Shown here: piece after piece, positions 251 to 6,540 of the stretch | How positions within the stretch are numbered: the stretch's first letter is position 1 | Layout: each line of letters begins with the position of its first letter | Notes under the pieces: model-generated | What the model was told of the DNA's origin: nothing | The model's database searches: none | The model's input: only the letters and a program-made list of their open reading frames with translations | From: Betaproteobacteria bacterium | GTDB lineage: Bacteria; Pseudomonadota; Gammaproteobacteria; Burkholderiales; Casimicrobiaceae | Assembly: GCA_016192065.1 (NCBI GenBank) | Contig: JACPUX010000040.1 | Location: 1 to 64,000 of the forward strand | Direction: 5' to 3' | Length of the DNA: 64,000 nucleotides | Translations under genes and position numbers: made by a program

Positions 251-1054
251 ATGAGCTTGAAGAGTCACGTTGACGCGTCGGGCTTTCCGCTGCAAATCGC
301 GGTTGCAAACACGGTTTCTGAAACATGCAAGGAATCTGGCTGGACAGTCAGGTATAAAGAGCATTCCTGGGAGAACCGCGAAACGAAGGAGTCAGGATTC
401 ATCGATCTTGTTCTCTCAAAAGACGGCGTGTTCTTTCTCGTCCTTGAGTGCAAGCGCGTCCGAGACTTTCCCTGGATCTTCCTGGCGGAACGCAATAGGC
501 AGCGCTCCTGGAGCCGCGCCAAGGCTTTCGTATCAAACAAACCGGGACGAGAAACCAAACGATTCGAATGGCTTGACCTTGCTATTTCACCGGCAACCCT
601 TGAATCGCAATTCTGTGTCGTTCCGGGCGCGGCTGGCGACCAGAGAGGTAAACCCCTGCTCGAACGCACGGCCGCCGATCTGATCGCTTCCACCGAGGCT
701 CTTGCCTGCGAAGATCTGGCACTTAACCTGGACGACCGAAACACGCTTCGCGTCTACTTACCGATAGTTGTGACCACCGCACCATTGCAGCTTTGCTCAT
801 TCGAGGTCAGTGAGATAGATATCAAGAAAGGGACCATCGAAGACCCCGCCTTTGCCGAAATTCCCTTCCTCCGATTCAGAAAACAGCTCAATCCAATTCG
901 GAAAGTGCCAAGCGAATACTCCGTATTCGGCGACTCGGAAATCGCCGCCGCCAAGGAGAATACTGTCTTCGTTGTAAATGCGCAGCACTTGGTGGAGTTA
1001 CTCGATAAACTTGAGTTGGACAACACCCATGAAAACAACCGCTATCTGACTTGA
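251..1054 (+). CDS. Hypothetical protein with PD-(D/E)xK nuclease-like core
   Basis: This 267-aa protein has no family I recognise. The N-terminal third has the layout of a restriction-endonuclease-like fold: Asp52 in GFIDLVL, then a hydrophobic strand ending in Glu66-Cys-Lys68 (LVLECKRV), the usual D...ExK metal-binding triad. The rest is mixed alpha/beta with no motif, no signal peptide and no membrane segment, so it should be cytoplasmic. Base composition is unlike the rest of the window (about 45% GC over 301-360), which suggests recent transfer. It stands alone, with decayed gene remnants on its right and a restriction-modification unit 2.5 kb further on. A role in nucleic-acid defence is possible, but only the motif supports it. 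Confidence 0.6.
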   Translation: MSLKSHVDASGFPLQIAVANTVSETCKESGWTVRYKEHSWENRETKESGFIDLVLSKDGVFFLVLECKRVRDFPWIFLAERNRQRSWSRAKAFVSNKPGRETKRFEWLDLAISPATLESQFCVVPGAAGDQRGKPLLERTAADLIASTEALACEDLALNLDDRNTLRVYLPIVVTTAPLQLCSFEVSEIDIKKGTIEDPAFAEIPFLRFRKQLNPIRKVPSEYSVFGDSEIAAAKENTVFVVNAQHLVELLDKLELDNTHENNRYLT

Positions 1055-1588: not shown

Positions 1589-1825
1589 ATGGCATTACAA
1601 ATCGCCAATCCGGCCGTCGTGAGCAAAGTCGAGCGGCTGGCGCGCGCCACCGGACTTTCCAAGACCGCAGCAGTTGAACGCGCAGTGGATCGGATGCTGG
1701 AAGACACTTTGGTGGCCCCGGCGACGGGGCGCGTCGAGGCTTTGCTGGCACAGCTCGACCGCGTACCGAATCGCCAGCCGGCCTTCGACCCCTTGGAGTG
1801 GGACGAGCACGGCCTGCCGCGATGA
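1589..1825 (+). CDS. vapB: VapB-family antitoxin (Rv0623-like)
   Basis: This 78-aa antitoxin has the N-terminal signature of Rv0623-type VapB proteins: a MALQIANP strand, then a helix with LARATGLSKTAAVERAV. This part should bind DNA as a dimer. The charged C-terminus (FDPLEWDEHGLPR) is the expected toxin-wrapping tail. The stop codon overlaps the start of vapC (ATGA), so the two are translationally coupled and made together. A palindrome just upstream is the likely autoregulatory site. The ATG at 1589 is in frame with the conserved N-terminus; an ATG at 1575 is out of frame and gives only 15 residues. Confidence 0.85.
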   Translation: MALQIANPAVVSKVERLARATGLSKTAAVERAVDRMLEDTLVAPATGRVEALLAQLDRVPNRQPAFDPLEWDEHGLPR

Positions 1826-2226
1826 TTGTCGTCGACACTTCGGCACTGGTTGCCATCGCCTTCGCCGAGCCCGAACGCAGCGCCTTCGTTGCGGCGATCG
1901 AGAGTTCTGCCAAGGCCTTGATCTGCACGGTATCGCTGGTGGAAACCAGGATGGTTGTCTACGGGCGCCGCGGTGATCGCGCCGTCGTACTGCTCGACGA
2001 TTTGCTGCGCCTCCCCTGGTTCGAACTGGTTGCGCCAGACAAGACCATCGCCGACGCCGCCTATGCGGCCTTCATTACCTATGGCAAGGGCAACGGCCAT
2101 CCCGCCAATCTGAACTTCGGCGACGTCTTCAGCTATGCTCTGGCCAAAGTTCGCGGCCTGCCTCTACTCTACAAGGGCGATGATTTCGCGCTTACCGACA
2201 TCGCCTCGGCGTCAGCAAGCGAATGA
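1822..2226 (+). CDS. vapC: VapC-family PIN-domain toxin ribonuclease
   Basis: This 134-aa PIN-domain protein should cut RNA, commonly tRNA or rRNA in this family, when freed from its antitoxin. The acidic metal-binding residues are visible: Asp5 in VVDTSAL, Glu41 in SLVET, Asp101 in NFGDVFSYALAK, and Asp120/Asp121 in LLYKGDDF. The order and spacing match VapC toxins of the Rv0624/Rv0301 type. I chose ATG 1822 over the upstream ATG at 1798 because it gives the canonical MIVVDTSA start and an ATGA overlap with vapB. All catalytic residues are intact, so the toxin looks functional. Confidence 0.88.
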   Translation: MIVVDTSALVAIAFAEPERSAFVAAIESSAKALICTVSLVETRMVVYGRRGDRAVVLLDDLLRLPWFELVAPDKTIADAAYAAFITYGKGNGHPANLNFGDVFSYALAKVRGLPLLYKGDDFALTDIASASASE

Positions 2227-3280: not shown

Positions 3281-3625
3281 CTAGCGATCCAAGGGGTAAG
3301 CGGTCAACAGCCGAGGACAGGCAGCGGCATGCGCAAGCTCCCAGATGGAACGGATGCATGGATTCACGCGGTCCGGGGTGGGGCAGCGGCAATCGACCTG
3401 GTAGCGAGTTCCCCATTGGTGCCGCGTGACTTTCACGACAGGATTGTCGCGTCCCTGCGCGACCAGGGCGTCACGCATCTCGAACCAGCGTGCCGCATCG
3501 AACCCACGCGCTTGAAAGAACCGCGCCTTGGGCCCCCCGTCCGGGTGGGCTGGGTTAAGCAGGTACTCCAGAATCTTCTTTTCTTCAACGAGCGCGCGCT
3601 CGCTGTTTGGAAGTCCTTTGGTCAC
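3281..3625 (-). CDS. DUF6883 domain protein
   Basis: This 114-aa protein is recognisable as a DUF6883 protein from its opening KILEYLLNPAHPDGGPKARF, the AARWFEMRDAL segment and the closing WGTRYQVDCRCPTPD strand. The family has no established activity. DUF6883 genes commonly follow a small DUF4926 gene; here the DUF4926 domain is the C-terminal tail of the restriction protein just upstream. The start is GTG at 3625 and overlaps the res stop (GTGA), so translation is probably coupled. The final 25 residues (NPCIRSIWELAHAAACPRLL) look less conserved. No signal peptide. Confidence 0.7.
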   Translation of the reverse strand: MTKGLPNSERALVEEKKILEYLLNPAHPDGGPKARFFQARGFDAARWFEMRDALVAQGRDNPVVKVTRHQWGTRYQVDCRCPTPDRVNPCIRSIWELAHAAACPRLLTAYPLDR

Positions 3626-6540
3626 CGAAGCACCGCCGCTTCCAGAGCATCGGCGGCAACCGTAACCACGGCGATTTCGCCATTCAAGTCGCCGAACTCG
3701 ACCGCGTAGGCCGCCCCGTCACCGTACACTGCGAGTATTGTCCCGAGCGCACCCGCACTCAAGGCATAGCCCTCGCTCGCAACGCTGCCCCGCAGGCGCA
3801 CGCGCTCATGCTCAGCAAACCGGACGCTCGTCGCACCACCACCGATCAGCACATCGATCTGTTCGTAAACCCCGCGCCCGTTACCATCTCTTTCCACGGC
3901 CATCAGGAACAAATTGCGGCTTGCCTTGGCCCAGAACTCTCCGACCAGACGCTTATCGTTGGACTCGTTGCTGCTCTTGTAGCCTTCCCCCTTGTATTCC
4001 ACCACCAAGTGTCGCCCATCCAACAACTCACAGATGAAGTCAGGGTAGAAATACATCCCCGCCGTAGGAAGCCGAAACGAGAGGTCCGTCTTCGCGAGAT
4101 TGCGCACCCAATGCCGTACCGCGGGGTGCCTGTCGATGGCGACGGCGCAATGGAATTCGTGATCGGTCTGGCCGCGCGGCGGGTCTTCCAGTTCTCCGAT
4201 CACGCCATAGTAGTGGCGCTGAAAGCGGTAACGCCCCGAGTCCTGATAAAAGGGGGGCTGCGCGGGGTACCCGCCGGGGGCGAAGCGGAAAAGCTGGGTA
4301 TCGCTGACACAGGCGCGAGGTTGATCGCCCAATAGCGCGAGCTGGAAACCCCGGCCCTGCGCCCGGCTTGCCAGCGCAGCGATCCGTTCGGCGATCGAGT
4401 CGGCGAGTTGGTTCCGGTGCCGGACCAAGGCGGTCAAGGAGTACTGCCCTTCGCGCTGCAAGTGGCGAAGGACTCGGCCCAGCCAGACCAGGCGTTCCGC
4501 CTGCGCGATGTTCGGCGTGCGCAGGCGCGCATCGAGCCAGCGGAGCAAGTCGCCTTCTTCCACGTCGCCAGGCACCAGATCCAGGTTCATGCCGAACTCG
4601 CGCTGATCCTGTTCGATCCGCAGGTGCCCTTGCTCGATGTCGAGCAAGTAGGGTTTGGCGTCGCGGTCGGGAGTAAAGCCAGGCAACTCCGGGCCTTGTT
4701 CGGCAAGCGCCACGCCGGCCAAATCAGCCAGGGACTCCCTGCTCGCCAGTTCCAGCTCGGCTTGTTCGCCCCAGGCAAACTGTACGCACAACAGCGGCAA
4801 GGGCCGAAACGGTATGCCGCGCTCCGAGGGCGCGTGCAGCGCCAGATGGACCAATTCGAACCGCGCCATTTGCTTCGCCACCTGCTCCTGCTCTTTCTTC
4901 CCGAGCAGGGTGGCGATTAGGGTCTCTCGTACCTCCACTGTCGGCGGTTGACTCAACCGCACCAGGAAGGCCCCTCCAGGTCGGGCCTCCCAACTGACCC
5001 CCTGCGCCTGAGCAAGCTCGGGGCTTATCCTCGGCGCCACCGGCAGCTCGAACTCCAAGGGCGGCGTGGTCAGCGCCCGCACTGCCCCGCTTTCGTCGAA
5101 CAAAGGGGCGGTGCTGGGATAGATCGCCTGAGCCGCCTCCAACTCCTCGAAACCCATGGCTACCAGACGGTCCGCAAGCGCGTTGGCCACCTCCGCCGAC
5201 TTGCCGCTCGCCAGATGCGCGTAGGCGCGGTTGAGCAGATCGCTCCGGCGTCTGCTCGCATAGGGCATGCGCAGCACGCGGCCAAGCAGTTGCTCCATGT
5301 CTTTGCTCGAGCCGATGCGCTGGAGCGAGCAGAACACGTAAGCGAAAGAGCAATCCCAGCCCTCCTTGAGCGCCTCGACGGTGATGACGATCTCGACCGG
5401 GCACTTCGGATCAAACAGGTTCACGCCATCCAGCTCGCGCTGATTTCCTGTCGCCACCGCAATACGCGGCGCGGCGATATGCTCTTGCTCGATCAAGTGC
5501 GTGCGCAGTCGCTCGACGGTGATCTCGCCGGACTTGTCCTCGGCCTGCAACATCAAAATCGGGCGAAGGTATTGGTCTTCGTTGACAGCCTCAACGGCCA
5601 GGCGCTTGCGTGTGAGCAGCGCGTCGCGCACCGCCTCCTGCCAATTCGGGTGCGCTTGTAGCACGATCGGCAGCTTGATCATTTGCTCGGCTTTCAGGGC
5701 CTCGGCCGAAACATGGTAAAGCACGTTGCTGCGTTGCGAACCCTTGCGAACAGGCGTCGCCGTCATTTCGATCAATGCCGCGGGCCGCAGGCGGGCGAAG
5801 GTCTCGAAGCTCAACGCGCCCCTCGCGTTATGCGCTTCGTCGATGATGACCACCGGCCTGTGCCAGTACATCAGGTTGGCGAAACTGCGCTTGACCTTGC
5901 CGATGTCAGCTCGTGCCAGATAGGGCTGCGCCGCAAGGTCCGCTTCCACAACCCGTTCAAAACCCCTGAGGTCCGGCGCACGCGCGAAGTGCGGTTCGAA
6001 AGCTTCCTTATAGGCATAGACATCGCGCCCCGAGGTCTCCTCGACCCGCAGCGTCTGCAAAGTGCCGACGACAACGATCGCGCGGTTCTCGAAGTCCTGC
6101 GGGCGCAACTGCTCGCATTCGGTAATGTCGATGACCCGCGGACCATCCACCCCAAAGTGCTGCTCCAGCGCCTCGCGGTAAGGGTGCCCAGGCTGGCGCA
6201 GGGCGTTGAGGGTCTGCTGGCGGATGGTGTTGGTCGGCACCAGCCAAAGTGCCAGAGGTCGATCTTGCCCAGTGTAGTGGCGCGCCGCGCAAGCAATGGC
6301 ATGGGCGCCCAGCAGGGTCTTGCCGCCTCCGGTGGGAATACGTAGACAGACATAGGGGGTGACCTCAAAGCCCTGGGCCAGATACTGTGGGATGGCATCC
6401 CAGGCACAACCCTGTTCACCGAGAACCTGCCGAAAGGCGGCATCGAGTCCGCCATAGTCGCCAGCACCGCGAGCGAGATCGAAGAACCGCGCCAGTACTT
6501 CAATGGCCTTGCGTTGGTAGGACTTCAGCTCAAGGCCCAT
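3622..6540 (-). CDS. res: Type III-like restriction enzyme Res subunit with C-terminal DUF4926 fusion
   Basis: This 972-aa ATP-dependent helicase-nuclease is the cutting partner of the adjacent methyltransferase. In order it shows a Q-like SYQRKAIEVL, Walker A GGGKT (71-75), DEAH (234-237), TATP (260-263), and an SF2 C-terminal core with LKEGWDCSFAYVFCSLQ and LLGRVLRMPYA. A PD-(D/E)xK endonuclease site follows: Pro833-Asp834, then Glu848-Tyr-Lys850. Residues 908-972 are an added DUF4926-like domain (GTILAVYGDGAAYAVEFGDL). I chose ATG 6540, 2 bp after the mod stop, because MGLELKSYQRK is the conserved start; the 28-residue upstream extension runs through the end of mod. All catalytic motifs appear intact, so the system is probably active. 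Confidence 0.92.
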   Translation of the reverse strand: MGLELKSYQRKAIEVLARFFDLARGAGDYGGLDAAFRQVLGEQGCAWDAIPQYLAQGFEVTPYVCLRIPTGGGKTLLGAHAIACAARHYTGQDRPLALWLVPTNTIRQQTLNALRQPGHPYREALEQHFGVDGPRVIDITECEQLRPQDFENRAIVVVGTLQTLRVEETSGRDVYAYKEAFEPHFARAPDLRGFERVVEADLAAQPYLARADIGKVKRSFANLMYWHRPVVIIDEAHNARGALSFETFARLRPAALIEMTATPVRKGSQRSNVLYHVSAEALKAEQMIKLPIVLQAHPNWQEAVRDALLTRKRLAVEAVNEDQYLRPILMLQAEDKSGEITVERLRTHLIEQEHIAAPRIAVATGNQRELDGVNLFDPKCPVEIVITVEALKEGWDCSFAYVFCSLQRIGSSKDMEQLLGRVLRMPYASRRRSDLLNRAYAHLASGKSAEVANALADRLVAMGFEELEAAQAIYPSTAPLFDESGAVRALTTPPLEFELPVAPRISPELAQAQGVSWEARPGGAFLVRLSQPPTVEVRETLIATLLGKKEQEQVAKQMARFELVHLALHAPSERGIPFRPLPLLCVQFAWGEQAELELASRESLADLAGVALAEQGPELPGFTPDRDAKPYLLDIEQGHLRIEQDQREFGMNLDLVPGDVEEGDLLRWLDARLRTPNIAQAERLVWLGRVLRHLQREGQYSLTALVRHRNQLADSIAERIAALASRAQGRGFQLALLGDQPRACVSDTQLFRFAPGGYPAQPPFYQDSGRYRFQRHYYGVIGELEDPPRGQTDHEFHCAVAIDRHPAVRHWVRNLAKTDLSFRLPTAGMYFYPDFICELLDGRHLVVEYKGEGYKSSNESNDKRLVGEFWAKASRNLFLMAVERDGNGRGVYEQIDVLIGGGATSVRFAEHERVRLRGSVASEGYALSAGALGTILAVYGDGAAYAVEFGDLNGEIAVVTVAADALEAAVLR

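Follow-up and report, generated by a model that had tools for sequence, protein, structure and literature searches.

We analysed a 64,000-nucleotide stretch (the window) of contig JACPUX010000040.1 from a Betaproteobacteria bacterium of the family Casimicrobiaceae, and found in it a Type III restriction-modification (R-M) operon whose restriction subunit, Res, ends in a DUF4926 domain and is followed by a gene for a DUF6883 protein. The fusion of DUF4926 to a restriction (R) subunit is real and recurrent, and is undescribed as far as the literature searched shows; that literature names DUF4926 only once, in a cyanophage study, and does not name DUF6883, and papers beyond it may exist. We regard it as a variation on the restriction guardian, assembled from families that are uncharacterised. 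We think it probable that the operon encodes a restriction-linked guard, in which DUF6883 would be a tRNase toxin of the BECR fold, DUF4926 an antidote built into Res, and the toxin would be freed when Res is inhibited or lost.

The initial annotation of this DNA, made from the sequence alone, had proposed that DUF4926 is fused to the end of Res and that the DUF6883 gene follows with a GTGA overlap, and both proposals hold. A hidden Markov model search gives a significant match: the Pfam family PF16277 (DUF4926) aligns to residues 938-995 of the 1000-aa Res frame, scoring 31.4 bits when the entire protein is searched and 37.7 bits when only the C-terminal 69 aa are, the curated cut-offs being 29.1 bits for PF16277 and 27 bits for PF21814 (DUF6883). 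A profile search of the whole genome places DUF4926 at 3640-3813 (36.9 bits) with no internal stop, and finds the Res domain to be the sole DUF4926 in this genome; likewise, gene 3281-3625 is its sole copy of DUF6883. The PADLOC REase_III match spans residues 32-927 of the same frame, and since this model of Type III Res stops at residue 927, DUF4926 sits past the usual end of Res. Res has 972 aa when counted from the ATG just past the Mod stop, and the open frame extends to 6624. In an independent betaproteobacterial bin (L100), nuclease and DUF4926 likewise share one frame (~65% identical to the window in the nuclease part and ~40% in DUF4926), and a DUF6883 gene comes next, again overlapping by GTGA, so a sequencing error hiding a stop or frame break, which the initial annotation had considered, is ruled out in practice. 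That frame of L100 (4994-5986) joins the Mod N-terminus to the Res C-terminus, with DUF4926 kept and DUF6883 next, and it is the C-terminal part that bears on the fusion; this chimera may be a deletion that retained antidote and toxin, or an assembly join, and we draw no support for addiction from it.

The assignment to Type III rests on both subunits. Mod has an N6/N4 methyltransferase domain with DPPY and FxGxG motifs, and Res, adjoining it, has a ResIII helicase and a PD-(D/E)XK-type nuclease motif; catalytic motifs are kept in both, as read from the translations.

A search for other fusions found DUF4926 on further Res families and on a Type I HsdR, which goes beyond what the initial annotation claimed. 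The domain stands at the C-terminus of BPTD_3080-type Res proteins on Agrobacterium and Rhizobium plasmids and on an IMG/VR contig, on a third type of Res in two genomes, and on the HsdR of a complete hsdM-hsdS-hsdR Type I operon in an alphaproteobacterial genome (32.5 bits against the 29.1 cut-off). As read from these profile matches, at least three Res families and one HsdR carry the fusion; the matches on the window Res and on HsdR lie above the Pfam cut-off, and those on the BPTD_3080-type and third Res lie slightly below it or are seen with the local profile only. In every R-subunit fusion the next gene is DUF6883, with an overlap of 4 or 8 bp. Among homologues with downstream sequence available, which alone served as controls, neither DUF4926 nor DUF6883 was present in 14 relatives of the BPTD_3080 type (75-81% identical to L057, with one fragment at 73%), in 10 relatives of the window Res, or in one relative of HsdR (61% identical). 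Domain and toxin are therefore gained and lost as a unit.

Because the host genes differ, the fusion must have had more than one origin. In a tree of DUF6883, the R-M-linked copies are scattered among antitoxin-first pairs, with three label changes of which at least two are forced, and they form a single group in 0% of bootstraps; the alignment has few columns and the tree many unresolved forks, and the duplicate of the window's own protein was excluded. Antitoxin-first toxin-antitoxin pairs may lie behind the R-subunit fusions, captured on more than one occasion. Between L052 and L056, dN/dS is below 1 for both partners (0.07 for DUF4926, 0.26 for DUF6883), a sign of purifying selection.

Away from R-M systems, DUF4926 is normally a separate small gene paired with DUF6883, as the initial annotation had stated. 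We scanned bacterial genome contigs for DUF6883 using patterns from a three-row alignment, a twelve-row alignment being too diverse for back-translated patterns, and obtained 52 loci from many phyla. A DUF4926 frame adjoins DUF6883 on the same strand in 48 of them, mostly within ~40 bp; of the remaining four, two run into the end of their contig. Gene order varies, with the toxin first in most phyla and DUF4926 first in many alphaproteobacteria, and annotated plasmids show the same pairing. The standalone pairs have the layout of Type II toxin-antitoxin systems, namely small, adjacent, co-oriented genes; in the window, the antitoxin part is instead a domain of Res. DUF6883 also forms the C-terminus of a Mu-F-type phage minor capsid protein, and likewise of viral minor capsid models, and it is the C-terminal domain of a 382-aa effector-like frame with DUF4926 directly after it, while in one genome a DUF4926 gene on its own lies downstream of the gene for an S-type pyocin (Pyocin_S) protein. 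Capsid, effector-like and pyocin settings are the usual ones for toxin and immunity genes. Behind the phage capsid-DUF6883 gene stands a 57-aa gene whose product resembled a small, beta-rich immunity protein; it is not assigned to DUF4926 by Pfam, and we did not count it. DUF6883 was not found in the phage collection at the sensitivity used, nor in E. coli genomes with a Rahnella DNA query.

Three further arrangements were met among these families. A family of ~500-aa proteins (L111 5176-6684, L059 5113-6678, L037, L116 and L117) has DUF6883 mid-protein and no DUF4926 alongside, and the flanks of the two members scanned are without a Pfam match. The standalone DUF4926 protein of L073 (5636-5992), with DUF6883 as the next gene, has an extra N-terminal stretch that weakly matches PF20711 and resembles the start of small, unstable antitoxins. 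On a Meiothermus plasmid (L186 3459-6646), a DUF6883-DUF4926 pair is directly followed by a co-oriented DEAD/DEAH helicase-family protein, perhaps another link to defence.

The predicted structure of the window's DUF6883 suggests what kind of toxin it might be. The AlphaFold2 (AF2) model (pLDDT 95.2, pTM 0.88) has helices followed by a four-stranded sheet, which is the arrangement of the BECR fold (helices, then a four-stranded antiparallel sheet). Its best match in the PDB is a contact-dependent growth inhibition (CDI) toxin, the CdiA-CT of Klebsiella pneumoniae 342 (6cp9; Foldseek E 3.5e-4, TM 0.72). VIA aligns the two over 100 residues with Z 11.4 and an rmsd of 2.1 A, clearly ahead of the rows that follow, several of which are BECR toxins too (among them CdiA-CT EC3006, Z 7.4, and BrnT, Z 7.1). 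Identity to CdiA-CT(Kp342) is ~20%, in the structural alignment only. CdiA-CT(Kp342) and its E. coli 3006 counterpart cut uncharged tRNA-Ile (PMC9086364; PMC6851490), and the catalytic residues of the former are K157, Y160, H170, R252 and T255 (PMC9086364). With residues 11-112 of DUF6883 aligned to 151-259 of 6cp9, K17 falls on K157 and R105 and T108 on R252 and T255, and Y21 and H27 fall at matching places near Y160 and H170, the set being matched by offsets of the aligned ranges. These positions are conserved in 96 DUF6883 sequences: K17 in 93, Y21 in 94, H27 in 86, T108 in 87 (with Ser in 8 more) and R105 in 67. The window protein retains all five putative catalytic residues. This modelling predicts that DUF6883 is a ribonuclease toxin with the BECR fold, of the CdiA-CT(Kp342)/colicin D-like kind, and that its nearest counterpart is CdiA-CT(Kp342), which cleaves the acceptor stem of tRNA.

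DUF4926 is in turn predicted to be the cognate immunity domain of this toxin. A model of a standalone homologue is an SH3/KOW-like barrel, and sequence searches of DUF4926 against solved structures gave nothing significant. The suggestion of the initial annotation that the pair is a regulatory, immunity or toxin-like add-on to restriction thus finds support in the predicted structures, the conservation of the putative active site, the effector and phage contexts, and the joint presence and absence of the two parts.

In the scheme that follows, we infer that DUF6883 is toxic, that Res neutralises it, what sets it off and that tRNA is its target. The operon would be read in the order mod, res-DUF4926, DUF6883, with translation of Res preceding that of the toxin and coupled to it, which would place each new toxin molecule beside its antidote. 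The toxin would be held inactive on Res or on the Mod-Res complex until Res is inhibited, degraded or no longer made, whether the cause is an anti-restriction protein of a phage, shut-off of the host or the loss of R-M genes. Freed toxin would then cleave tRNA and stop translation, with the outcome being abortive infection as a second line behind restriction, together with addiction to the R-M operon. We give an even chance to the broader claim that Type I and Type III systems share an undescribed class of restriction guardian, with the antidote of a BECR-type tRNase built into the R subunit as one of its domains, with the integrity or abundance of R as the direct off-switch of a suicide toxin, and with antitoxin-first pairs captured repeatedly.

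Several observations weigh against this scheme. The fusion is rare, and wider surveys found it in 0 of 11 further HsdR relatives and 0 of 12 Res relatives. Some R-M-linked copies of DUF6883 deviate at one or two of the putative catalytic positions: 17 and 27 are both R in L063, 27 and 108 are both S in L038, and 105 is I in L052 and L056. Sequence searches of DUF6883 against solved structures gave nothing significant, with no detectable similarity to BECR toxins (best E 0.22); most BECR CDI toxins were recognised by structure only (PMC9086364). No DNA-binding domain or degradation tag was seen in DUF4926, and in the AF2 model of a read-through DUF6883-DUF4926 pair (pTM 0.68) the relative placement of the domains is not fixed.

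The same parts and the same coupling would also serve pure addiction, in which the toxin only punishes loss of the R-M operon and the fusion ties the antidote to the genes to be kept, with no sensing of phage. Such stabilisation fits the plasmid-borne examples and a genome whose sole antidote is the Res domain, but an unfused neighbouring antitoxin would do equally well, and the fusion is repeatedly and specifically to the R subunits of Type I and III systems, so the state of R seems to matter; we regard addiction alone as unlikely. Less likely still is a coupled effector, in which DUF4926 tethers DUF6883 to R, and it is released or activated not by loss of R but when target DNA is recognised or translocated, such that RNA and DNA are attacked together. 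A C-terminal site beside the nuclease domain, in Res as in HsdR, could pass a conformational change to the toxin, and this geometry recurs, but the standalone pairs and effector-immunity contexts suit an inhibitor, not an activator or tether. It is very improbable that DUF4926 is an SH3/KOW-like accessory of the R subunit that binds nucleic acid or protein, with DUF6883 a non-toxic partner or an inactivated nuclease serving as a regulator. This would accommodate both the R-M-linked copies that have lost putative catalytic residues and the likeness of the DUF4926 model to the Hpy99I N-terminal domain (Z 9.3) and the KOW domain of NusG (Z ~8), but the SH3/KOW-like fold is common and such matches carry little functional meaning and no proof of function by themselves, the window DUF6883 is intact at all five positions, and the effector and phage contexts point to toxins. 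Finally, draft though the genome is (85 contigs, 88.8% complete), faulty assembly, faulty sequencing or accidental read-through has next to no chance of explaining the fusion, given that L100 has this frame too and that four different R genes share the architecture.

Among known systems, the guard that we propose may work like PrrC/EcoprrI, with unrelated parts. PrrC is silenced by EcoprrI and activated once T4 Stp neutralises EcoprrI (PMC2610378; PMC12707154), and has been termed an R-M guardian (PMC12707154). In both cases a tRNase gene that would disable translation lies in or next to an R-M operon, although in the window the tRNase activity is predicted and silencing by R-M is our proposal. 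PrrC is a large ABC-ATPase anticodon nuclease, EcoprrI is Type Ic, and there is no dedicated antidote domain, whereas here the toxin would be a 114-aa BECR-type protein with its immunity domain on the R subunit, and the design extends to Type III systems in addition to Type I; because it matches DUF6883 only, the 114-aa protein is not PrrC. CdiA-CT/CdiI of Kp342 (6CP9) shares the predicted toxin fold, the positions of the active-site residues and a small cognate immunity protein, but its toxin is delivered from cell to cell by CdiA; CdiI is made nearly all of beta-strands and is dimeric (PMC9086364), and we found no link between it and DUF4926. The BECR type II toxin-antitoxin systems BrnT/BrnA and RelE/RelB have small, adjacent, overlapping toxin and antitoxin genes and the same class of fold (BrnT Z ~7), whereas the putative antitoxin here is SH3/KOW-like, has no DNA-binding domain that we could find and is fused to a restriction subunit. 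PARIS (AriA/AriB) also guards against anti-restriction and is named alongside PrrC (PMC12707154), but its proteins are unrelated, and a separate large complex senses the anti-restriction proteins. In the available part of PMC11980606, ptuXYZ and other BECR-linked operons place a BECR RNase in a defence operon with a restriction-like protein, but their parts are DUF262-, PtuA- and YoeB-like, and an R subunit of Type I or III with a fused antidote is not described in that part.

If the guard operates as proposed, two abundant families without a functional name could be assigned as toxin and immunity protein, and restriction would acquire a guardian of new design, one with a physical link from first-line cleavage of DNA to a second-line shut-off of translation. 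The response of the cell to anti-restriction proteins becomes testable in small cloned operons, of Type III as well as Type I, and immunity domains at the ends of restriction subunits are worth looking for as a general search rule.

Table 1. Features of the R-M operon in the window and the basis for each
Feature	Position	Strand	Basis
Mod, Type III N6-adenine DNA methyltransferase, 509 aa	6543..8072	-	DPPY and FLGSGTTA motifs; PF01555 170 bits; PADLOC MTase_III 630 bits
Res, Type III restriction subunit, helicase, nuclease and C-terminal DUF4926	3622..6540	-	PF04851 55.8 bits; PADLOC REase_III 731 bits
PD-(D/E)XK-like nuclease motif of Res, PDFICELLDGRHLVVEYK, intact	3991..4044	-	read from translation
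DUF4926 domain at the Res C-terminus, predicted SH3/KOW-like immunity (antitoxin) domain	3625..3819	-	PF16277 above cut-off; fold predicted on standalone homologue
GTGA shared by Res stop and DUF6883 start (translational coupling)	3622..3625	-	
DUF6883 gene, 114 aa, predicted BECR-fold tRNase toxin	3281..3625	-	PF21814 100.9 bits; AF2 model; Foldseek and VIA match to 6cp9; conservation
Putative catalytic codons of DUF6883	K17 3575-3577, Y21 3563-3565, H27 3545-3547, R105 3311-3313, T108 3302-3304	-	

Two features neighbouring the R-M/toxin operon are of interest. A VapBC-type pair (PSK_trans_fac/RHH antitoxin and PIN toxin) at 1589-2226 (+), ~1 kb away from that operon, brings the number of toxin-antitoxin-like systems in the region to two. 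Also near the operon, at 251-1054 (+), is a gene for a 267-aa protein without a Pfam match, whose sequence suggests a nuclease-like motif (FIDLVLSKDG...VLECKR) and which is possibly another defence gene.

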